Source: a virus
Length of the DNA: 58,837 nucleotides
Reading direction: 5' to 3' (one strand)
IMG/VR virus record: IMGVR_UViG_3300045119_000159
Coordinates: 1 to 58,837 of that record
In this document: one piece after another, positions 128 through 57,715 of the stretch
Layout: every line of letters begins with the position of its first letter
Position numbering within the stretch: the first letter of the stretch is position 1
Translations under genes and position numbers: made by a program
Notes under the pieces: model-generated
What the model saw: the letters and a program-made list of their open reading frames with translations, nothing else
Database searches by the model: none
Told to the model about the DNA's origin: nothing

Positions 128-234
128 CAGACCTCCTCGTCGGCTGCCTCGATGTAGAACAGGATGGCCTTCTCGGTTGTCCGGCGGACCTCGCCGTCGA
201 AGCCAAGATACTCGCGGTCGCTCACAGCTCTCAC
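40..234 (-). CDS. Hypothetical 64-residue acidic protein
   Basis: Small soluble acidic protein with alternating strand-like segments (REYLGFDGEVRR, AILFYIEAADEEVWLPLSQV), perhaps a small beta-barrel fold. I do not recognise a family. The GTG start at 234 overlaps the stop of the ATPase gene (GTGA), so it is translationally coupled to it. The next gene begins at base 12 across the circular join. Its place directly behind the RepA-like ATPase suggests an accessory role in replication or DNA binding, but nothing in the sequence proves this. Confidence 0.75.
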   Translation of the reverse strand: MRAVSDREYLGFDGEVRRTTEKAILFYIEAADEEVWLPLSQVELSDDETSVLVPRWLAVEKGLT

Positions 235-1091
235 GCTTCCTCCGCCCCATACCGCTTGAAAACCCCCGCCGCAGGCTCAACCCGAACAAAAACCCCAGCC
301 TCCCACATCAGCAGGATTTTCTGGTCAGATGGGCCGTAATTGCTTTTTTTGGTCTCGAACACCAAACCCATTTCCGCGTGGTGATACAGATACCAGCGAG
401 CCCTGACGCTGTTGTTCCACGCGACGTTGCCACTCTCCCCGGAACCGCTCGCGCGTCCCGCCAGCGACGGGTGCTTCGTCACAATCACCACACCCTGGAT
501 CAGCATCGCGAGCCGCCGCAACTCGCTGATGTACTGCATGACCTGACGTTCGTCGTTCTGATTGCCATCAAATGTCTGCGTCGCCGTGTCAACAATCAGA
601 TAACTCACCCCGCAATCCCGGCATTGGTCGCTCACCTCGCGCAGCAGCCGGGTCGGCTTCATCTGCCAAGTCACACGGTCCAAACGGCACAGCGCGTTAT
701 CCTGCCCGACACGAGGGCTCAACATCAGGCCACCCTCGGCAAAATCGTCCATCTCCATCCCAAGGTCCCGACCGATCGAGAATTGCCGCCGCCACAACTC
801 GTCGTAATCGTCCTCGCAGGCAATCATCAGCGCCCGGCCCGGCAAGACGCTCATCCCCAACCACGCCCGTCCTACCGCAGCGCTCGAACACAACTGCTGC
901 ATCAACAGGCTCTTGCCAATCCCGCCATCGCCCGATACCAGCGCCACCGTACCCCGCAGAAACGCATTCTCAACCATCCACTCCCGCCTTGGCGGCTGCT
1001 TCCCCTGCCACCTGGCCGGCGATACCGCCCTGAATATCCGATCATCAGCTACTAACCTTTCCGCCGGACGCCCCCGCGCCTCCGCTGTCAT
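231..1091 (-). CDS. RepA/DnaB-like AAA_25 ATPase
   Basis: RecA-fold ATPase of the type seen in RSF1010 RepA-like helicases (AAA_25). Visible are a Walker A motif (GDGGIGKS, about residues 54-61 from this start), an acidic ACEDD segment after the next strand, a Walker B-like strand (YLIVDTATQ), and a late basic segment, SVRARWYL, that suits an arginine-finger or hexamer contact. Family members are hexameric helicases or loaders that act on DNA. As the only replication-type ATPase in the genome, it probably helps the host replisome start on phage DNA (inference). ATG 1091 has a good ribosome-binding site (GGAAG, 6 nt upstream); a GTG at 1118 is the alternative. Either start overlaps the upstream gene by about 50-75 bp. 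Confidence 0.85.
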   Translation of the reverse strand: MTAEARGRPAERLVADDRIFRAVSPARWQGKQPPRREWMVENAFLRGTVALVSGDGGIGKSLLMQQLCSSAAVGRAWLGMSVLPGRALMIACEDDYDELWRRQFSIGRDLGMEMDDFAEGGLMLSPRVGQDNALCRLDRVTWQMKPTRLLREVSDQCRDCGVSYLIVDTATQTFDGNQNDERQVMQYISELRRLAMLIQGVVIVTKHPSLAGRASGSGESGNVAWNNSVRARWYLYHHAEMGLVFETKKSNYGPSDQKILLMWEAGVFVRVEPAAGVFKRYGAEEA

Positions 1092-1374
1092 CAGCCGCTT
1101 CCACTTCCTCGCGCTCACGGCTCAGCCAATCCTGAAAACCGTGTCCGTCCAGATCAGGCTGCAGACCAAGCCGCGCCCGCGATGCTTCTCCGATTTCATA
1201 AATCTCGTCAGGCGTCAGTAGCGGAAAAGGCTTAACCCTTTCCCCAGCACCATCAGCCTCGATGTCAGCCAGCAACCGCCAGAACACGGCACGCACGATG
1301 TAGAGGCGGGCAGCAGCCTCGCCCGTCATGTCGCACTTCCCCGAAACAGCCAGCTTGAATGCATCTTCCTTCAC
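1045..1374 (-). CDS. Hypothetical 109-residue protein upstream of the ATPase
   Basis: Predicted soluble, mostly helical protein with an acidic and then glycine-rich C-terminus (GGAGASGG). No family recognised. The GTG start at 1374 lies right after a GCGAGG sequence; an internal ATG about 15 codons in is the alternative. It overlaps the ATPase gene and presumably shares its mRNA, so a replication accessory role is plausible but unproven. Confidence 0.65.
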   Translation of the reverse strand: MKEDAFKLAVSGKCDMTGEAAARLYIVRAVFWRLLADIEADGAGERVKPFPLLTPDEIYEIGEASRARLGLQPDLDGHGFQDWLSREREEVEAADDSGGAGASGGKVSS

Positions 1375-2132: not shown

Positions 2133-2311
2133 GCCGCCCCCTTGTCAGCATCGCTTACCGGAGGCGGCCAATATTTACGGCTGTACAGTTGCGAGAACCG
2201 TACAGCATTCTTGCCTGTGAGAGTGGCCATTGCATCAAGCCGCTCAAATTCCCACGCCTCTTTGAGGCTTAGGTGATCGAAGGGGAACGGATCGCGCACA
2301 GCCAGAGTCAT
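2129..2311 (-). CDS. Hypothetical 60-residue protein
   Basis: Small soluble protein. ATG 2311 was chosen because it overlaps the TGA of the RusA-like gene (ATGA), matching the coupling used along this operon; an upstream in-frame start at 2383 would overlap that gene by 76 bp. A helix (LKEAWEFERLDAMATLTG) is followed by a basic, Tyr-rich tail. No family recognised. Confidence 0.65.
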   Translation of the reverse strand: MTLAVRDPFPFDHLSLKEAWEFERLDAMATLTGKNAVRFSQLYSRKYWPPPVSDADKGAA

Positions 2312-2736
2312 GCCGCCCTCGCGATCGGCGTTACCGTCACCACGATTTTCGGCTGACCGCTGTAGACTTTTCGCAGTGTCCAATACTCGACTATCTGGCT
2401 GTCATCGCAATACACAACTCCGTTGAACGCATCTTCTACCTGCTTGACAATATTGGATAAATCCGGTTTCTTCGCCGGGCGAATTTCACCTAGAAGCGCC
2501 GCCGTTCGCTTAGCTCGCGAGTAAGATTTCGGGATTGCGAACTCAGCGGTCAGATTTACACCCACTGGACCGGCAAACGGCAATCGCCCGATCATTTCCT
2601 GATGCGCCAAAAGCTTTAGTGCGACGGCGTTGTTGCGTTGCCGCCTCGGCGTGAATAGGGAGCCCGTCTTGCTGATGCGCGTCCTCGCCCATGCTACAGG
2701 CTCGCCTAACAGGCAGACGGTGACGGGATCATTCAC
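2308..2736 (-). CDS. RusA-like Holliday junction resolvase
   Basis: 142 residues, normal for the RusA family of dimeric endonucleases that cut four-way DNA junctions during recombination, replication or packaging. Visible are the N-terminal strand (VTVCLLGEPVAWARTR), a conserved KPDLSNIVKQVEDAFNG segment carrying an acidic metal-binding residue and a DNA-contact lysine, and the following CDDSQIVE with the second acidic pair. The start at 2736 overlaps the upstream stop. It probably works with the YqaJ exonuclease and ERF annealase on the opposite strand to resolve branched replication products before packaging. Confidence 0.88.
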   Translation of the reverse strand: MNDPVTVCLLGEPVAWARTRISKTGSLFTPRRQRNNAVALKLLAHQEMIGRLPFAGPVGVNLTAEFAIPKSYSRAKRTAALLGEIRPAKKPDLSNIVKQVEDAFNGVVYCDDSQIVEYWTLRKVYSGQPKIVVTVTPIARAA

Positions 2737-3107
2737 GCTGGCCGCCCCCGCTTAAGAGCGCGTGCCGCTACCGTGCCAACCGTGTTAGCCTCATCGCTAG
2801 CCGCGACAGGATGTCGGCGAGCCACAGCACCAACCTTTTGTCTGGCCTTTTCTTCACTGGCGGCTCCCCCAGCCCATTGCTGCCGTATCGCGGCACTAAG
2901 CGCATCTCGTTCTTCCAATCTTGCGACGATCCGAGCGGCCAATTCCTCGCGGCGCGCTACAGGGAACCGGCCAGCTAGCCATAGCTTAGCCGTGTCAATC
3001 GAGACGCCCCATTCGCGCGCAATCTTCTTCCGTGCGCTCGGCTCATAGGCAAAGCGCAATGCTTCCGCCGCGCTCGTCACGGAACTACCCACCTTGGGTA
3101 ACGACAT
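2733..3107 (-). CDS. Helix-turn-helix-like hypothetical protein
   Basis: 124 residues. The N-terminal half contains an HTH-like segment (ARKKIAREWGVSIDTAKLWL) in which a scanning helix is followed by a possible recognition helix. The C-terminal half is Arg/Ala-rich and probably disordered. ATG 3107 has a clear GGAGG site. As the first well-supported gene behind the Cro-like gene, it may be a DNA-binding early regulator or replication accessory (inference). Confidence 0.72.
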   Translation of the reverse strand: MSLPKVGSSVTSAAEALRFAYEPSARKKIAREWGVSIDTAKLWLAGRFPVARREELAARIVARLEERDALSAAIRQQWAGGAASEEKARQKVGAVARRHPVAASDEANTVGTVAARALKRGRPA

Positions 3108-3424
3108 GCCTCCGCCTCGCGTGTAATTGTCGGGGCGTTGAGGCTACGAGGGCGAGGCCGGACAGGATTATGCGCGATAGTTCCCCCGCTATGGTGCCGA
3201 TCCTGTCCGGTCGAGATTGCGGACGCGCCTATTTCCGCCTTGGCGATCGTCCAATGTGGCGTGACGCGGGGAGGCGTCATGTGCGGAAACCGCCCCCAAG
3301 GGGAGAGGGGATCGTCACCTTGGGGATCTGAGTGCAAATGGGAAGCGAGCCACCACCCGCTCAGCGGCCCTATAACGCAGGCTAGGACAGTCCAGCTTAT
3401 GATGATGTAGAGGGCGGTTGCCAC
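3077..3424 (-). CDS. Possible small membrane protein (115 residues)
   Basis: GTG start 22 bp after the Cro-like gene and a stop 31 bp inside the next gene, so it fills a gap of about 340 bp in the operon. The N-terminus forms one hydrophobic helix (LYIIISWTVLACVIGPLSGW); the rest is Pro/Arg-rich low complexity. The ribosome-binding site is weak and the opposite strand is also open, so the reading frame may be fortuitous. If it is not coding, the stretch is an untranslated spacer between the Cro-like gene and the HTH-like gene. Confidence 0.38.
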   Translation of the reverse strand: MATALYIIISWTVLACVIGPLSGWWLASHLHSDPQGDDPLSPWGRFPHMTPPRVTPHWTIAKAEIGASAISTGQDRHHSGGTIAHNPVRPRPRSLNAPTITREAEACRYPRWVVP

Positions 3425-3445: not shown

Positions 3446-3697
3446 TTATTCAGCGGCGGCTTCAGGCGGGCGGCCGTTTAAGTGGCGCGGCTCAAATTCC
3501 CCGGTCTCGCGATAGCGGCGGATCTGCAATCGGGCGCGCTCGACAGTTGAGAGGCGGCAGTCGCGACCCGTCCGAATCCCAAACACAAACCCCGGATCGT
3601 TGAGCGCATCGCGCCCAAACGCCGTCGGGCTCATGCCGCTTTCGACAAGGAATTGCTCGATTTCCGAGGACAGAGGTGCGTGTGTGTTCGGGTCCAT
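3446..3697 (-). CDS. Cro-like small regulator, divergent from the repressor
   Basis: 83 residues of a type common in alphaproteobacterial phages and prophages: EIEQFLVESGMSPTAFGRDA (first helices and turn), then LNDPGFVFGIRTGRDCRLST and an RLQIRRYRE helix. It is the first gene of the minus-strand early operon. Promoter PL ends only a few bases before the ATG, so the mRNA is nearly leaderless. By position and size it should play a Cro-like role, opposing the plus-strand repressor gene. The family's DNA target is not known to me. Confidence 0.78.
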   Translation of the reverse strand: MDPNTHAPLSSEIEQFLVESGMSPTAFGRDALNDPGFVFGIRTGRDCRLSTVERARLQIRRYRETGEFEPRHLNGRPPEAAAE

Positions 3698-3706
3698 CGG
3701 AATAGG

Positions 3707-3735
3707 AGTTTAATAGGCTTTTTCCTATCAGTCAA
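3707..3735 (-). promoter_or_regulatory. Promoter PL with operator O1 in its spacer
   Basis: On the minus strand: -35 TTGACT (3735-3730), 17-bp spacer, -10 TAAACT (3712-3707). Operator O1 (AATAGG-N6-CCTATC on the plus strand, 3712-3729) fills the spacer, so a bound repressor would exclude RNA polymerase. The element matches PR at 4261-4289 almost base for base. Transcription would start about 3-6 nt before the Cro-like ATG at 3697. Confidence 0.8.
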
Positions 3736-3786
3736 GCGGATCATTCCTATTGGACTTTTTTTATAGGGCGCGCGAACAAGGTCAGC

Positions 3787-4188
3787 ATGCCCCGAAAGGC
3801 CAAAGACCCTATCCCGTATGATCCGCCGCGTAAGCACCTCTCGGATTTAATGCTACGGGAGGGGCTTGATTTTGCTTCCCTGTCTGCCATGATCGGGCGA
3901 AATGCATCGTACGTTCAGCAGTACATGAAATACGGCAAGCCTCGAAATTTGCCGGAACGGGAGCGGGAAGCCTTGGGACAGCTATTTAAGGTAGATCCAG
4001 ACATTTTTCGCCAAAACTATCGACCGAGGGACGCTCAGAGCGAGTTGCTGGCCCTCTATGAGAGAGTGCCGGAAGAGCGGCAAGACGAGTTTCTGGAACT
4101 GGTGCGCCAAGCCGCGCGGCTCGCCACACCCGAACGGGCGGTCCCTACACGGCCAGGGCACCCGCGCCGCGCGGGAGTCAAAAATTAA
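3787..4188 (+). CDS. CI-like repressor (HTH, no peptidase domain)
   Basis: 133 residues. A helix-turn-helix is visible at about residues 18-48 (HLSDLMLREGLDFASLSAMI, then GRNASYVQQYMKYG) with the pattern of phage repressors. The C-terminal half is a helical, probably dimerising domain (ELLALYERVPEERQDEFLEL). No LexA-like S24 Ser/Lys peptidase is present, so induction would not be by RecA self-cleavage. It is divergent from the Cro-like gene, and matching operators lie on both sides of it. A weak promoter (TTGGAC ... TATAGG, 3750-3777) with an overlapping CCTATT half-operator suggests autoregulation. Confidence 0.8.
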   Translation: MPRKAKDPIPYDPPRKHLSDLMLREGLDFASLSAMIGRNASYVQQYMKYGKPRNLPEREREALGQLFKVDPDIFRQNYRPRDAQSELLALYERVPEERQDEFLELVRQAARLATPERAVPTRPGHPRRAGVKN

Positions 4189-4244
4189 CCAATATTTTTG
4201 AACTGGCGCGTTTAGCGACCCGTTAGCCATAAATATTTTCAGCC

Positions 4245-4262
4245 GATAGGCGAAATCCTATT
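4245..4262. promoter_or_regulatory. Operator O2 (GATAGG-N6-CCTATT)
   Basis: An 18-bp palindromic site with 6-bp half-sites and a 6-bp spacer, identical in design to O1 and O3. Its start is 22 bp (about two helix turns) from that of O3, suitable for cooperative binding of two dimers just upstream of the PR -35 box. Confidence 0.75.
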
Positions 4263-4289
4263 GACCGATAGGAAATAGCCTATTAAGCT
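4261..4289 (+). promoter_or_regulatory. Promoter PR with operator O3 in its spacer
   Basis: -35 TTGACC (4261-4266), 17-bp spacer, -10 TAAGCT (4284-4289). Operator O3 (GATAGG-N6-CCTATT, 4267-4284) fills the spacer. It is nearly identical to PL read on the other strand, so one repressor can shut both early operons. The first gene of the plus-strand recombination operon starts at 4320. Confidence 0.8.
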
Positions 4290-4319
4290 CCCTCTCATCG
4301 AGACACAGAGAGGGGCGCG

Positions 4320-5568: not shown

Positions 5569-5771
5569 GGACTCTCGACCAAGTATTTACTGCTGCCACC
5601 AGCAAAGAAACGGCGCTGCGCCAGTTGCGCGCCAGGCTCAGTGAACTCGATGCCGAGGCCGAGAAGCTGCGCCTGAAGCGGATGAAATTATACGATAACA
5701 TTCAGTTGTTCGCCCAAGGCCGAATCAGCTTTGAGGCCGCAACAAGATGCCTTAGTCGGATAGTGCGATGA
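5565..5771 (+). CDS. Small coiled-coil protein before the exonuclease
   Basis: 68 residues, almost entirely a charged heptad-type helix (LRQLRARLSELDAEAEKLRL). Start and stop overlap both neighbours (ATGA at each end), so it is tightly coupled to the YqaJ exonuclease. It may be a helper or inhibitor subunit, but I recognise no family. Confidence 0.7.
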   Translation: MRTLDQVFTAATSKETALRQLRARLSELDAEAEKLRLKRMKLYDNIQLFAQGRISFEAATRCLSRIVR

Positions 5772-6568
5772 AACTCGGCCTCACAGACGAGCAGCTCCAA
5801 GAAAGACGCCGTGGAATAGGTGGCAGTGACGCCGCGAAGATCATGGGCGGTATGTGGCATGAACTGTGGCTCGACAAAACGGGACGTTCCGAGCCAGAGG
5901 ATCTGTCGCGCGTCCTCGCCGTCCAGATGGGCTTGTTCACCGAACCGCTGAACATCTTCTGGTTCGAGCGCGAGACCGGCCATAAGGTTTTCGGGCGCGG
6001 CGAGGTCTACCGTCACCCGGATTACGATTTCATCCGATGCACCCTCGATGGGCTGACGCTTATCAAAAGCAGACCGGCGATCATCCAGGCGAAGCATGTA
6101 TCGGCGTTCTCTAAGATCGAGGAAATCGAGCAGCGCTACTATCCGCAAGTTGCACATGAAATGCTCGTCACGGGATCGTCCCTCGCGTTCCTCTCTGTTT
6201 TCCTTGGCACTCAGAAGTGGGAATGCGTTGAGATCCAAAGGGACCGAGAATATACTACGCGACTACTGGAATACGAACAGGAATTTTGGGGTTACGTGAC
6301 GCGCGATGAACCGCCGCCGCAACCCGAAGCGGTTCCGATACCGGCTCGTCCAGCAGTCTACCGAACGGTGGACATGAGCGGGTCGAACGTCTGGTGCGAT
6401 TTCGCGGTCGATTGGCTGGAGAACCAGGGTGCCGCGAAGAAGTATGACAAGGCGGCCAAGGAGTTGCGCGCGATGGTCGAGCCCGATGTCGGGCACGCCT
6501 TCGGCAAGGGCGTGGCGGTGAAGCGCAGTAAGGACGGAAAGCTGTTTATATCGGGGGCTGCAAAATGA
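5768..6568 (+). CDS. YqaJ-like (lambda Exo fold) recombination exonuclease
   Basis: 266 residues. Matches the YqaJ viral recombinase fold: GIGGSDAAKIMG at the N-terminus, GLFTEPLNIFWFERETGHKV with the conserved Glu, CTLDG with the metal-binding Asp, then IIQAKH, and YYPQVAHEMLVTG with the late Gln/His. Members digest one strand of double-stranded ends to make 3' tails for annealing. The usual Glu-x-Lys appears here as Gln-x-Lys. The gene overlaps the ERF annealase gene by 4 bp, forming the classic exonuclease-annealase pair. Confidence 0.9.
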   Translation: MKLGLTDEQLQERRRGIGGSDAAKIMGGMWHELWLDKTGRSEPEDLSRVLAVQMGLFTEPLNIFWFERETGHKVFGRGEVYRHPDYDFIRCTLDGLTLIKSRPAIIQAKHVSAFSKIEEIEQRYYPQVAHEMLVTGSSLAFLSVFLGTQKWECVEIQRDREYTTRLLEYEQEFWGYVTRDEPPPQPEAVPIPARPAVYRTVDMSGSNVWCDFAVDWLENQGAAKKYDKAAKELRAMVEPDVGHAFGKGVAVKRSKDGKLFISGAAK

Positions 6569-7290
6569 TCCAGACCAGCGAACAAATCGACGCTATCTCA
6601 GCCGCGCTAGTGAAGGCGCAAGCTGACATTGAGAACATCGCTAAGACCGGGAAAAATCCTCACTTCAAGTCGAGCTACGCCACCTTGGCGGACGTGCTCG
6701 ACGAACTGCGCCCGAAGTTTGCCAAGCACGGCATCTACATCATGCAGGCGGCCATCAACGGCGAGGGCGCGACCATCGGCGTCTCAACACGGCTTCTGCA
6801 TTCGTCAGGGCAGTGGATCGAGAGCACGCTGTACGTCGCGCCCATCAAATTCGACGCGCAAGGTGCTGGATCAACCGTAACTTATTTGCGTCGATATGGG
6901 CTCATGGCGATGGCTGGGGTTGGCGCAGAAGACGACGATGGCGAGGCTGCTGTCGGTCGCCCACAAGCCCCAGCGCGCACTAACGGCGCGACCCGCACCG
7001 CATCGGCCCCGCCGACGCCAGCGCCCCTGAACAAAGCCGCTCTGCCGCCGAGCCCCGAGGAAACCCCGGAGGTCACGGCGGCGCGCCAGCGCATCCGCAT
7101 GCTGATCAATAAGATTGACGCAATGATCAAATCCGCGCCGAACGATCACGTTCTGTCGGTCGGGATGGATGATGCTCTTGACGAATTCAAGGAGATCGAG
7201 GCGGCTGGCGAGAATGGCAAGAAAGCCGCTGACGAGCTGCGTGAGAGATACAATGAGCGCATGGCGACGCTCCGAGAGCAGGCAGCATGA
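6565..7290 (+). CDS. erf: ERF-family single-strand annealing protein
   Basis: 241 residues. The N-terminal 130 residues show the ERF core: AALVKAQADIENIAKTGKNP, FKSSYATLADVLDELRPKF, then YIMQAAINGEG and GSTVTYLRRYGLMAMAGV. This is followed by a Pro/Ala-rich linker and a helical tail. ERF proteins form rings that anneal complementary single strands, here probably those made by the adjacent YqaJ exonuclease. In a phage lacking its own polymerase, this pair can support recombination-dependent replication and genome circularisation. Confidence 0.92.
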   Translation: MIQTSEQIDAISAALVKAQADIENIAKTGKNPHFKSSYATLADVLDELRPKFAKHGIYIMQAAINGEGATIGVSTRLLHSSGQWIESTLYVAPIKFDAQGAGSTVTYLRRYGLMAMAGVGAEDDDGEAAVGRPQAPARTNGATRTASAPPTPAPLNKAALPPSPEETPEVTAARQRIRMLINKIDAMIKSAPNDHVLSVGMDDALDEFKEIEAAGENGKKAADELRERYNERMATLREQAA

Positions 7291-9664: not shown

Positions 9665-10261
9665 ATGATACGTCCCTTAATCGCCGCCCTCCTGCTAGGC
9701 AGCATCCTGACGCAGCCAGCCGCCGCGACCGTCACGTTCAGCTTCATGGAAACCGGAACCCTCAATGACTGCTTCATCGGCCCGTGTGGGCTTCAACTCC
9801 TGAGAACGCCGCGCGAACTCATGAGCATCACGCTATCCAGCGGCACAGAGACGGGCGAGGCCGAATCCAACGGGACCATGTTCGGCAACACCCCTCCACC
9901 CGTGGTCACAGACCCGAACTTCAGTTTCTTGGGTCCTGGTGGCGCTATCGAGGCGGGGATCGGCCCCGTACCTTTCTTCGAGTACGGGGTTTTCTACGAC
10001 ATGCACTGGGTTGCCGTCGCGGGGCAACTGACATACCTCTCCCTAATCTATGATAACTCGCTCAACGAATCGAGCTTCTCGAATTTCGGCCTCACCGGCG
10101 GTCTGGCTATCCGAGACCAGGGATGCGCCCTCACCCCGAACTGCCAGGTTACCGGGTTCTGGACCGACCCGCGATCGGACCCAATTCCCGAGCCAGGATC
10201 GCTAGCGCTTCTGCTGAGTGCGTTGCTGTTGGGTGGTGGAATTGTGTTTCGCCGGGCCTAA
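9665..10261 (+). CDS. Secreted PEP-CTERM protein (exosortase substrate)
   Basis: 198 residues. N-terminal Sec signal peptide (MIRPLIAALLLGSILTQPAAA), a mature domain of beta-rich type with two cysteine pairs (NDCFIGPCG; GCALTPNCQ), and a textbook PEP-CTERM tail in the last 25 or so residues: the PEP motif in PIPEPGSLALLLSALLLGGG, then the end of the membrane helix and terminal RRA. In hosts with exosortase, such tails are recognised, cleaved and the protein sorted to the envelope or extracellular matrix. ATG 9665 has a GGAGAG site. The gene ends 4 bp into the convergent lipoprotein gene. A host-surface role such as receptor masking, biofilm change or superinfection exclusion is inferred. Confidence 0.88.
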   Translation: MIRPLIAALLLGSILTQPAAATVTFSFMETGTLNDCFIGPCGLQLLRTPRELMSITLSSGTETGEAESNGTMFGNTPPPVVTDPNFSFLGPGGAIEAGIGPVPFFEYGVFYDMHWVAVAGQLTYLSLIYDNSLNESSFSNFGLTGGLAIRDQGCALTPNCQVTGFWTDPRSDPIPEPGSLALLLSALLLGGGIVFRRA

Positions 10262-19876: not shown

Positions 19877-20839
19877 CTAATACCCGCCATTCGTCCGCAT
19901 GTTGCTGGTGAGCGCCGCCCCGCTGGACGAGGTGTCGGCAGTGTAAACCGCCATTTGGAGAAAGCTGGCCGTCAGCGTTCGAGCGGAGGAGTCATTGCAT
20001 ATATTCAAACCTAAACTAGAGAAAGCAACATTTGTACCGACCGTCCCGGTGGCGGTTGATCCATTGATCGACATAGTGCCCGTCCCGCCACTCACTGGTT
20101 GAGTGCCGATCATCGAGTAGAACGTTCCGACACTGACGGCCGGTGGGGCGACGAGAGTCGTTCCGGCGTTGTAGATTGCGTCTATGGTGGCGTTGGAGAA
20201 GCCGAGAGTCGGACCTGGGGACGCCGCATCAAAGGCTGGCCCCGCACTCATCAATGGGCCGTAAACACCAGCAGTCGAAACATCGACCCTTACCGCTGCA
20301 AGCATCGAGGTGGGTTGGGCGTTGCCTGGAAAGTCACCGTTGGCTGTGTGTGTTGTTCCAGTACATTTGAGGGCGGGAATAGTCCCGATAGCATTGGGGA
20401 TAAAATAAAGATACTTGCCCGTGGCCGATACCATATTACAAAGAACTGTGCCGCCGCCACAGTAATTCCCCGCACTACCATCAGTATACGCGATATGAAC
20501 CAAGCAGGCATCCACCCCCGGCGTCGAACCGCAGGGATTGCCTCCTCGCGTCTGCGTGCTTGACACGATACCGGTCGTTGCGTCTGATACCGCGTCGGCG
20601 CAGTTGCCCTCGGCGGTATCGCACAGGTTGAGCATCGCCTGGCCGCGTGTGGCGGCGCTACAAGCAATCGTGCCCCAACAACCCTTGGCCCCAGGCAGCA
20701 CATCTAGGATGCCCTGGAAGCCACCACCGCCACCGCCACCGCCCTTGGTCCCCGGACCCGGCCACGGCATTCCAACTTGGGCCAGCGCGATCCCAATTGG
20801 CAATAAAACGGCAGCGATTGTGAGAAGTATTCTCCTCAT
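19877..20839 (-). CDS. Secreted cysteine-rich fibre-like protein
   Basis: 320 residues: signal peptide MRRILLTIAAVLLPIGIALA, a Gly-rich hinge (eight Gly in a row near residue 35), then a beta-rich domain with ten cysteines in close pairs (GCWGTIAC; NLCDTAEGNC; PCGSTPGVDAC), as in disulfide-bonded extracellular proteins. The ATG overlaps the preceding stop by 4 bp. The C-terminal half resembles phage fibre beta-sandwiches with no enzyme signature. Likely a receptor-binding or fibre-cap protein. Confidence 0.72.
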   Translation of the reverse strand: MRRILLTIAAVLLPIGIALAQVGMPWPGPGTKGGGGGGGGFQGILDVLPGAKGCWGTIACSAATRGQAMLNLCDTAEGNCADAVSDATTGIVSSTQTRGGNPCGSTPGVDACLVHIAYTDGSAGNYCGGGTVLCNMVSATGKYLYFIPNAIGTIPALKCTGTTHTANGDFPGNAQPTSMLAAVRVDVSTAGVYGPLMSAGPAFDAASPGPTLGFSNATIDAIYNAGTTLVAPPAVSVGTFYSMIGTQPVSGGTGTMSINGSTATGTVGTNVAFSSLGLNICNDSSARTLTASFLQMAVYTADTSSSGAALTSNMRTNGGY

Positions 20840-21564
20840 CGAACGACCCGCCAGTTAAGTGTGATAGCGCCAGGGGTCACTGAGGAACTCGTGTTGTTAC
20901 AAACCTTGAAATTTACGTTGTTTGAGGTCGGATAAGCGATGATGGTCAGCATCCCCGCTGTCGCTGGGATGTACCCGGTGACTCCTGTTGGATCGCCATT
21001 GAACGATGCCACGACAACATCGGTCGATGCAGCGCCAGTGGCCGACGTGGTGACGACCGTCGCGCAGGTGGCGGAGGTTATCGCGCCAGTGCCGAGAGCG
21101 GATGTCCCAGATGCTACTACCGCCGAACTAGGGGCACCCAAACTCAAATCTACCGTTACGGTGGAGCTGCCGGCAGCCGTCGCGAGCGCTCGCCCGATGA
21201 CCTGTGAAGAGGCGGGACGGGTTGCCCCCGCATCATGGCAGGCACCAGCAGTTGTGGCTGAATTGGTAACGTAATGCCCGGCTGTGATCGCCGTGGCATC
21301 GAAGACGCAGTTGACTTTACCAATCTTGGCAACCAGCGCATTGCCAGTCGTACCTGCGCCCGCATAGACGATCCCGGCAATATCATCAACATCCGTCGTG
21401 GCGGCGATAATCGCAGTAGAGGGGGCACCGGTCAGCTTCGCCAGCTTGTTGATAGTGGTGCCGGTGCCGGCCTCGTTAGCAATGTCAATAACAGCTTGCG
21501 CCATCGCCGGAGTGGCGGAAAGCAGCGCTCCAACCAGGAGCGCCCCGAGTAGTTTAATTTTCAT
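20836..21564 (-). CDS. Secreted fibre/decoration-like protein
   Basis: 242 residues: signal peptide MKIKLLGALLVGALLSATPA, then a beta-rich domain (KLTGAPSTAIIAATTDVDDI ... GNALVAKIGKVNC). The C-terminal part (ITLNWRVVR end) is Ser/Thr/Ala-rich. Four cysteines, two near each end. Overlaps both neighbours by 4 bp. The early part resembles capsid- or tail-decoration modules of phages, but here it is exported. Confidence 0.7.
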   Translation of the reverse strand: MKIKLLGALLVGALLSATPAMAQAVIDIANEAGTGTTINKLAKLTGAPSTAIIAATTDVDDIAGIVYAGAGTTGNALVAKIGKVNCVFDATAITAGHYVTNSATTAGACHDAGATRPASSQVIGRALATAAGSSTVTVDLSLGAPSSAVVASGTSALGTGAITSATCATVVTTSATGAASTDVVVASFNGDPTGVTGYIPATAGMLTIIAYPTSNNVNFKVCNNTSSSVTPGAITLNWRVVR

Positions 21565-21749
21565 AGGTTTGCTCCTAGATTAAGAACAACGACCGTCCCG
21601 CCGTTGACCACGATTAAACCGTTCGGAGTTGGCGCAACCGTTGGCGGACCACCTACAGCGCCCACATAAAAGTAAGTGAATTGCGCCCAAGCCTGCGGAG
21701 CAGCAGAAATAGCCACCATCATGATGAGCAAAGCGATGTATCTCATCAC
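21561..21749 (-). CDS. Small secreted protein in the fibre operon
   Basis: 62 residues: signal peptide MMRYIALLIMMVAISAAPQA, then a short beta-rich mature part (FTYFYVGAVGGPPTVAPTPN; GLIVVNGGTVVVLNLGANL). ATGA overlaps on both sides. Possibly a small fibre connector or an assembly factor. Confidence 0.65.
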   Translation of the reverse strand: MMRYIALLIMMVAISAAPQAWAQFTYFYVGAVGGPPTVAPTPNGLIVVNGGTVVVLNLGANL

Positions 21750-56849: not shown

Positions 56850-57065
56850 ATGACCATTACCAGCCAATTCGATCTCACCTTCGCCACCCAAGCCGAAGCG
56901 GCTGATTTCTTCGCCGCGCTCGACTATCGGCGGCTCCCCGTTCGCCAAGAAACCTATGCGGCGCAAGGCCGCAACGATGATGGTCTCGCCATCGTCACGT
57001 TCGCCCGCCGCAATCTCGTTGATGATGAAGGTCTGCATTTTCACTTTTCAGAAGTGAATCGCTGA
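56850..57065 (+). CDS. Hypothetical 71-residue protein
   Basis: Ferredoxin-like or small alpha/beta fold likely: FDLTFATQAEAADFFAALDY and DDGLAIVTFARRNLVDDEG. Preceded by a copy of the repeated leader (CCCACCAACACGGCAG). Confidence 0.68.
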   Translation: MTITSQFDLTFATQAEAADFFAALDYRRLPVRQETYAAQGRNDDGLAIVTFARRNLVDDEGLHFHFSEVNR

Positions 57066-57066
57066 G

Positions 57067-57258
57067 ATGGATAACACCGAAGGCTCTGACGCTCACCTGA
57101 TCGCCGCCGCGCCGGAGCTGTATGCGGCGCTGAAGTTCGTTTTCGAGCACATCGCCGACAAAGAGCGAGGACCGCGCGATCTTTATCCAGCTTTCGGCTT
57201 GGACGCACAGCGCGTAATCGAGATGGCGCGCGCCGCGCTCGCCAAAGCGCGAGGCTAG
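57067..57258 (+). CDS. Small DAHLIAAAPELY-type protein
   Basis: 63 residues: the start SDAHLIAAAPELYAALKFVF is a common phage motif, followed by a helix with GLDAQRVIEMARAALAKAR. It begins 1 bp after the previous gene. Role unknown. Confidence 0.7.
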   Translation: MDNTEGSDAHLIAAAPELYAALKFVFEHIADKERGPRDLYPAFGLDAQRVIEMARAALAKARG

Positions 57259-57292
57259 TCCCCACCAACACGGCAGCCCACGGAGAGATCAG

Positions 57293-57559
57293 ATGCGGAT
57301 GTTCGACGCGCTGAAAGCCGACGCCGAGAAGCTGCGCGCTCTGACCGGCGAAACGCAGTCGTTCATGATTTCCTGCGACGATTGCGGTGGTGAAGGCGGC
57401 TACGAAGTGGCTTACGCCGCGACCTCGAAATGGGGCGACCCAACGCCCGGCGGCGAATGGATCGAATGCCCCACCTGTCACGGCTCGGGCTGGCTCGACA
57501 ACCACGAACCAGAACCGCCCCTCGATCCCGACGAAATATTTCCGCCGTTCTCTGACTAG
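57293..57559 (+). CDS. Small DnaJ-like zinc-finger protein
   Basis: 88 residues with two CxxCxG motifs (CDDCGGEGG; CPTCHGSGW), as in the DnaJ cysteine-rich domain. Preceded by a full copy of the repeated leader. Perhaps a small chaperone-like or nucleic-acid-binding protein. Confidence 0.72.
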   Translation: MRMFDALKADAEKLRALTGETQSFMISCDDCGGEGGYEVAYAATSKWGDPTPGGEWIECPTCHGSGWLDNHEPEPPLDPDEIFPPFSD

Positions 57560-57592
57560 CCCCACCAACACAGCAACCCACGGAGAGATCAG

Positions 57593-57715
57593 ATGACCCG
57601 TTTCCGCATGGACAACACCAAAGGCTACAGCGCTGCCGAACTTTCCGAACTCAATGCAGCATGGGAGGAAATCATTGCGGCCGCCAATGTCGTCATCTCC
57701 AGATCACAAGGATGA
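57593..57715 (+). CDS. Hypothetical 40-residue protein
   Basis: Last plus-strand gene, preceded by a full copy of the repeated leader (CACCAACACAGCAACCCAC, then GGAGAGATCAG). Contains an amphipathic helix (YSAAELSELNAAWEEIIAAA). Convergent with the membrane protein gene on the other strand, overlapping it by 23 bp. Confidence 0.6.
   Translation: MTRFRMDNTKGYSAAELSELNAAWEEIIAAANVVISRSQG

Follow-up and report, generated by a model that had tools for sequence, protein, structure and literature searches.

Do the two predicted early promoters of this virus, each with the same palindrome inside its spacer, form a bidirectional immunity switch together with the repressor-like gene located between them? 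This had been proposed in an earlier note on the same DNA. The window analysed here is a whole virus record of 58,837 bases, which also holds podovirus-like structural genes (terminase subunits, a major head protein and a head-tail connector with relatives in Pelagibacter, Bordetella and other phages).

Predicted early promoters and their operators

Both predicted early promoters were found exactly where they had been placed before, and in both of them the 17-bp spacer holds the palindrome ATAGG-N6-CCTAT (Table 1). A further perfect copy is located 22 bp from the one in the rightward promoter, as had been claimed, and the repressor-like ORF indeed sits between the two promoter-operator regions. 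These three exact copies are the only ones in the window, compared with 0.003 copies expected by chance from a first-order Markov model of its sequence. When the local AT-rich stretch was simulated in 100,000 runs, 65 runs gave one exact copy and none gave more. Operators which are similar, repeated and overlap both early promoters are arranged as in a lambda-type region. A one-mismatch operator, ATAGGTTTGCTCCTAG, is found at 21563–21578 at the start codon of a minus-strand ORF (20836–21564) among the structural genes and could be a chance occurrence.

The two regions had also been called duplicated. The sequence 3705–3753 is an inverted copy of 4243–4291, with 39 of 49 nt identical, and this likeness extends past the operator and the hexamers, which fits duplication of a promoter-operator unit. 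Thus, the repeat itself is present, and the common descent of its two halves is plausible.

In a generic sigma-70 scan the Cro-side promoter alone was flagged, and this count of 1 is not above the 1.6 obtained in shuffled sequences; a generic terminator scan likewise did not exceed the shuffles. Therefore, the promoter calls rest on the register with the operators and on conservation. The same register of −35 element and operator is present at the Cro-side promoter of related loci (L093, L115, L139, L149, L151 and L157). The rightward arrangement recurs in L115 and L146/L347, where the tandem layout of operators and promoter is kept nearly base for base and the 16-mer O1' is identical and at the same place.

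Several palindromes close to early genes can also be replication iterons, and one may think of sites for methylation or for a host regulator such as LexA, the position within promoters then being incidental. However, the palindromes stand in exact register with the −35 and −10 elements and are tightly associated with repressor and Cro genes (see below). Furthermore, the motif differs from the alphaproteobacterial LexA box GTTC-N7-GTTC, which does not occur in the region and has its sole match within the window at 9804, so that control of the window by LexA was rejected. We consider such an incidental origin extremely improbable and treat the palindromes as operators.

Table 1. Predicted genes, promoters and operators of the immunity region and its flanking operons.
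Feature	Position	Strand	Remarks
AAA/primase-helicase-type ATPase	231–1118	-	leftward operon
RusA Holliday-junction resolvase	2308–2736	-	leftward operon
Small possible HTH protein	2733–3107	-	cII position of leftward operon; weak HTH_7 match (E 0.05)
Cro-like gene, 83 aa	3446–3697	-	small helical, HTH-like
Early promoter toward Cro and replication genes	3707–3735	-	predicted; TTGACT (3735–3730)-17-TAAACT (3712–3707)
Operator O1, ATAGGCTTTTTCCTAT	3713–3728		predicted; fills the Cro-side promoter spacer
Operator O2, AGCGGATCATTCCTAT	3735–3750		predicted, imperfect; 22 bp from O1; overlaps the −35 by 1 base
Operator O3, ATTGG-N6-TTTAT	3749–3764		vestigial; ATTGG-N6-CCTAT in relatives
PRM-like repressor promoter	3750–3779	+	probable; TTGGAC (3750–3755)-18-GAACAA (3774–3779)
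Repressor, 133 aa	3787–4188	+	lambda-repressor-type HTH, residues 13–74; C-terminal helices 83–113
Operator O2', ATAGGCGAAATCCTAT	4246–4261		predicted; last base overlaps the rightward −35
Early promoter toward recombination genes	4261–4289	+	predicted; TTGACC (4261–4266)-17-TAAGCT (4284–4289)
Operator O1', ATAGGAAATAGCCTAT	4268–4283		predicted; fills the rightward promoter spacer
First ORF of rightward operon, 100 aa	4320–4622	+	no assigned function
YqaJ/RecE-like recombination exonuclease	5768–6568	+	rightward operon
Erf-like ssDNA annealing protein	6565–7290	+	rightward operon

An operator array and a probable repressor promoter on the Cro side

Judged from its sequence, each side is best described as an operator array, rather than as one site plus stray half-sites. 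Two half-sites had been noted before on the Cro side, and both exist. The one at 3702–3706 lies outside any operator of the array. The other (3746–3750) does not stand as a stray half-site, since it is the intact and conserved arm of an imperfect second operator, O2, with the sequence AGCGG-N6-CCTAT. The 22-bp distance of O2 to O1 mirrors the right side, and its form A[GC][CA]GG-N6-CCTAT is kept in L115, L345, L346, L347, L353 and L349. O1 and O2 are kept in the window, whereas the right arm of a third operator, O3, has decayed to TTTAT. In the closest relatives (L115, L345, L346, L347 and L353, of which L346 and L347 deviate in one arm) the array on the repressor strand reads TAATAGG-N6-CCTAT-N2-GTCAA-[GC][CA]GG-N6-CCTATTGG-N6-CCTAT. 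Here, the Cro promoter holds the first operator within its spacer, the left arm of the second is imperfect throughout, and ATTGG is common to the second and third operators.

For the repressor gene a separate plus-strand promoter is needed in the interval from the Cro-side promoter to the start codon; the earlier note had left it unplaced. The probable candidate is a PRM-like promoter 7 nt upstream of the start ATG at 3787. The relatives show the TTGG of the third operator (TTGGNN), followed after 18 bp by a GACAAT-like hexamer and after another 5–9 nt by the start codon. Hence the third operator, conserved in these relatives, would overlap the probable repressor promoter. In the window itself the −10 hexamer GAACAA is a poor match, so this placement is tentative. 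With such a start the repressor message would be near-leaderless, as is the message from PRM of lambda. The centre of O2 is at about −44 from the repressor start codon; in lambda, OR2 lies near −42.

The predicted repressor and the Cro-like protein

In the AlphaFold2 model (pLDDT 83.6) the 133-aa protein consists of a five-helix HTH domain and two further helices, which plausibly constitute a dimer interface. The modelled domain has the fold of a lambda-repressor-type HTH, and the fold search returned P22 c2 (Z 9.1) and the 434 repressor (Z 8.3–9.0). This HTH is homologous to that of S24-type CI repressors (phmmer to 1e-17), and searches of Pfam, NCBIfam and PHROGs gave no significant match. 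Neither an S24 domain nor a fragment of one was found in the protein or near its gene in any frame. The S24 autocleavage domain is present in 11 out of 15 relatives in the repressor alignment, and S24 proteins make up the majority of those relatives which have the same operator. Since the repressor of the window has no such domain, induction probably does not proceed by RecA-stimulated autocleavage. S24-less repressors with operators nearby are also present in L115, L106, L162 and L356, and the records of three of these, L115, L162 (= L349) and L356, contain an integrase match.

For the 83-aa protein the AlphaFold2 model (pLDDT 78.9; helices 9–20, 24–32, 37–42 and 49–65) shows an HTH-like helix layout. 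Its fold matches are HTH controllers, but weak ones (best E 0.3); it has no match in Pfam or PHROGs, and its family was not found in the protein family libraries. Its designation as Cro is based mainly on position, size and association: in 17 out of 17 loci of the first set of related loci that hold both genes, the relatives of Cro and of the repressor are divergently oriented. Protein-only searches of viral contigs with the window proteins revealed no close relatives of either protein, and blastn and tblastn of the region and the repressor against named phages gave no match.

Operator and proteins predict each other across viral contigs

The earlier note had suggested scanning related phages for the same operator. 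We scanned viral contigs with two DNA-only patterns combining the operator with TTGAC, without reference to proteins, and counted repressor or Cro relatives within 1.5 kb of a site. The pattern TTGAC-N2-operator occurs at 41 viral loci, of which 14 have a repressor relative, 12 a Cro relative and 11 both. Scrambled operators, in which the letters of the half-sites were rearranged, gave 94 loci without a single repressor or Cro relative (Fisher test, 9e-9 for the repressor and 2e-7 for Cro). For the looser pattern operator-TTGAC, which yielded at least 120 loci, repressor relatives appear in 11 and Cro relatives in 8 among the matches listed. The protein profiles were partly built from the same loci. 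When the test was repeated free of this circularity, with the window proteins alone as single phmmer queries, 14 of 41 loci were positive for the repressor, 13 of 41 for Cro and none in the control.

The reverse test started from 63 viral loci chosen by the repressor profile. Exact operators were found in 41 of them, with 82 sites in total, compared with an average of 0.2 sites for 29 permuted half-sites. Dropping contigs already seen and duplicate proteins left an independent set of 37 loci. With up to one mismatch allowed, an operator is located upstream of the repressor gene in 26 of these, downstream in 15 and on both sides in 13. A −35 element directly before the operator was seen on the Cro side in five, on the far side in eight and on both sides in three of the 37 loci. 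Thus, placement in the promoter spacer is one of several layouts in the family. The operator thus recurs beside repressor and Cro relatives, and operator sequence and repressor/Cro homology predict each other both ways. This mutual prediction, together with the clean controls, supports the reading of the region as a bidirectional immunity switch. We consider it highly probable that it is a lambda-type CI/Cro immunity region.

In lambda-type systems, CI and Cro usually act on common operators. Here, one protein alone might use the sites, for example the repressor all of them, with the 83-aa protein acting elsewhere or only at O3. For this there is a precedent in PY54, whose Cro binds OR3 only (PMC4488713), and for the 83-aa protein the databases gave no significant family and the fold search only weak matches. 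On the other hand, operator arrays are accompanied by Cro-like and repressor genes whether loci are selected by DNA or by protein. We regard such a division as rather unlikely and prefer the reading in which both proteins would act on the same sites.

Flanking operons and the virus record

The minus-strand promoter is followed by the 83-aa ORF, the small possible HTH protein, RusA and the primase/helicase-type AAA ATPase, and the plus-strand promoter by small ORFs, the RecE-like exonuclease and the Erf annealing protein. Recombination genes thus point one way and replication-type genes the other, as in lambda-type phages. For this reason the names PL and PR given to the two promoters hold as designations of early promoters, but the lambda roles are reversed: the former "PL" resembles PR of lambda and the former "PR" resembles PL.

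The gap separating the Cro-like gene from the next gene leftward holds a perfect inverted repeat (CCGGACAGGAT...ATCCTGTCCGG, 3159–3212) at the position of tR1/nutR of lambda; its folding energy is ordinary when compared with shuffled sequences (z −1.15). Two 36-nt direct repeats (57260–57295 and 57560–57595), 94% identical and 300 bp apart, are found near the start of the minus-strand ORF 57041–57571. Rfam gave no match.

The record, which is unclosed and may be a fragment, yielded neither an integrase nor a serine recombinase, an rve transposase or ParA, so lysogeny is without independent support. A tyrosine integrase match is present in 9 out of 14 related records, in eight of them above the curated cut-off. 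A search of 396 genomes from the order to which Novosphingobium (G001) belongs revealed no copy of the tandem right-hand operator pattern.

These observations bear on the question whether the switch is a relic, its operators stemming from a temperate ancestor and its S24-less repressor, in a phage without integrase, no longer maintaining lysogeny. Such a reading would agree with the missing integrase, with the lack of any S24 fragment near the gene and with the poor state of O3 and of the repressor −10 hexamer. However, the repressor ORF is intact, its model shows a confident HTH fold followed by two C-terminal helices, operators without a use would be expected to lose their perfect form, and S24-less repressors accompany operators in the four other loci named above, three of them with an integrase match. 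A defective switch appears quite improbable to us, and a functional one is assumed in what follows.

Proposed mechanism and comparison with known systems

According to our model the repressor, presumably as a dimer, would bind ATAGG-N6-CCTAT within the spacers and just upstream of the −35 boxes and so block RNA polymerase at both outward-facing early promoters. Transcription of the Cro-like gene, the possible cII-like gene and the replication genes would start from the left promoter, that of the genes for the exonuclease and the annealing protein from the right one. The repressor itself would be made from the weak promoter overlapping O2 and O3 of the Cro-side array, on a near-leaderless message. 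When bound to O1 and O2 it would keep the early genes off and, given the position of O2, could help its own promoter. The Cro-like protein would act on these sites as well and so switch the repressor off.

As in lambda, the repressor gene lies between two operator clusters with a divergent Cro-like gene, the operators overlap the early promoters, recombination and replication-type operons are separated, and the repressor message is predicted to be near-leaderless. Unlike in lambda, the operator is ATAGG-N6-CCTAT, strong operators are fewer on each side, the repressor is devoid of an S24 domain, no equivalent of N, rex or cIII was identified, and an integrase was not found in the record. The telomere phages N15, PY54 and phiKO2 are plasmid prophages. 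Their immB regions also have divergent cI and cro genes with several operators or one between them, PY54 has leaderless cI and cro messages and its Cro acts on a single site (PMC4488713); the operators, however, are different from those in the window. Mycobacteriophage BPs has an equally short repressor, gp33 (136 aa; active form 103 aa), an operator at OR between the −10 and −35 of the early promoter, and divergent repressor and early promoters (PMC4557955). The likeness to BPs as compared here is one of layout. Its immunity is integration-dependent, which involves an attP within the repressor gene and an integrase next to it, and no integrase was found in the window record; the 12-bp palindrome of BPs forms one half of a larger, bipartite site. 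With S24-type CI repressors (phrog_4, phrog_6201; PF00717) the window protein has the N-terminal HTH in common, but not the C-terminal S24 domain or any remnant of it. Thus, the principle of placing an operator within a promoter spacer, next to a short divergent repressor gene, is known (BPs; arrays in lambda and N15). The open-access literature, to which our survey was confined, yielded no description of this operator motif or of S24/Cro switches in alphaproteobacterial phages.

Relatives in bacterial chromosomes and in a cyanophage

Divergent pairs of an S24 repressor and a Cro-like protein, homologous to the pair in the window, are encoded in chromosomes of Sphingomonadales (L265–L344; for instance L276, L265, L267 and L293). 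Their intergenic regions contain CTAGG/CCTAG-type palindromes with a TAGG core like that of the window's operator, which differ from it in the outer base and in spacing; the exact operator occurs in only 1 of 80 chromosomal relatives, chiefly from this order. A LexA-type GTTC-N7-GTTC box is located upstream in 35 out of 50 distinct pairs and in none of 50 control stretches. In contrast to the window, the neighbours at the loci examined are not recognisable phage genes. In two Erythrobacter loci (L265 and L276) the pair is flanked by an aldehyde dehydrogenase gene, in L276 also by an FMN oxidoreductase gene, and hence is not an evident prophage. Possibly, these pairs represent a domesticated, SOS-wired phage switch. 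In L267–L275 the DNA between repressor and Cro gene is nearly identical across Stakelama, Tsuneonella, Sphingopyxis, Sphingobium, Aurantiacibacter, Novosphingobium, Croceicoccus and Qipengyuania, a likeness that speaks for a recent horizontal transfer of the element carrying it.

A further case is Synechococcus phage MinM1 (L417; 21.1–22.1 kb of ON981384), in which an S24 repressor has as its neighbour a related Cro ORF, located on the strand without annotation. The layout is the same, but the repressor has a different recognition helix and the palindromes are of the type GGGATATTTCCC. That helix and palindromes differ together is as expected if the repressor reads the site.

Implications

With a single operator pattern, lysogeny switches can be located and oriented in many environmental phages, including some with a repressor or Cro protein that goes undetected or unnamed in the standard protein libraries. 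It helps in predicting which contigs are temperate and which may have immunity in common. The S24-less repressors of several phages share their type of site with cleavable cousins, which raises the question how such prophages are induced. Tentatively, and with chances that we put well below even, ATAGG-N6-CCTAT with its core TAGG...CCTA may be the operator code of a large unnamed CI/Cro family, found across phages that are otherwise unrelated and several of which have S24-less repressors, with cross-immunity among its members and a LexA-wired version in Sphingomonadales. If this were true, otherwise unrelated phages could repress each other, and hosts among the Sphingomonadales would have the same switch in a chromosomal form, connected to a LexA-type box.
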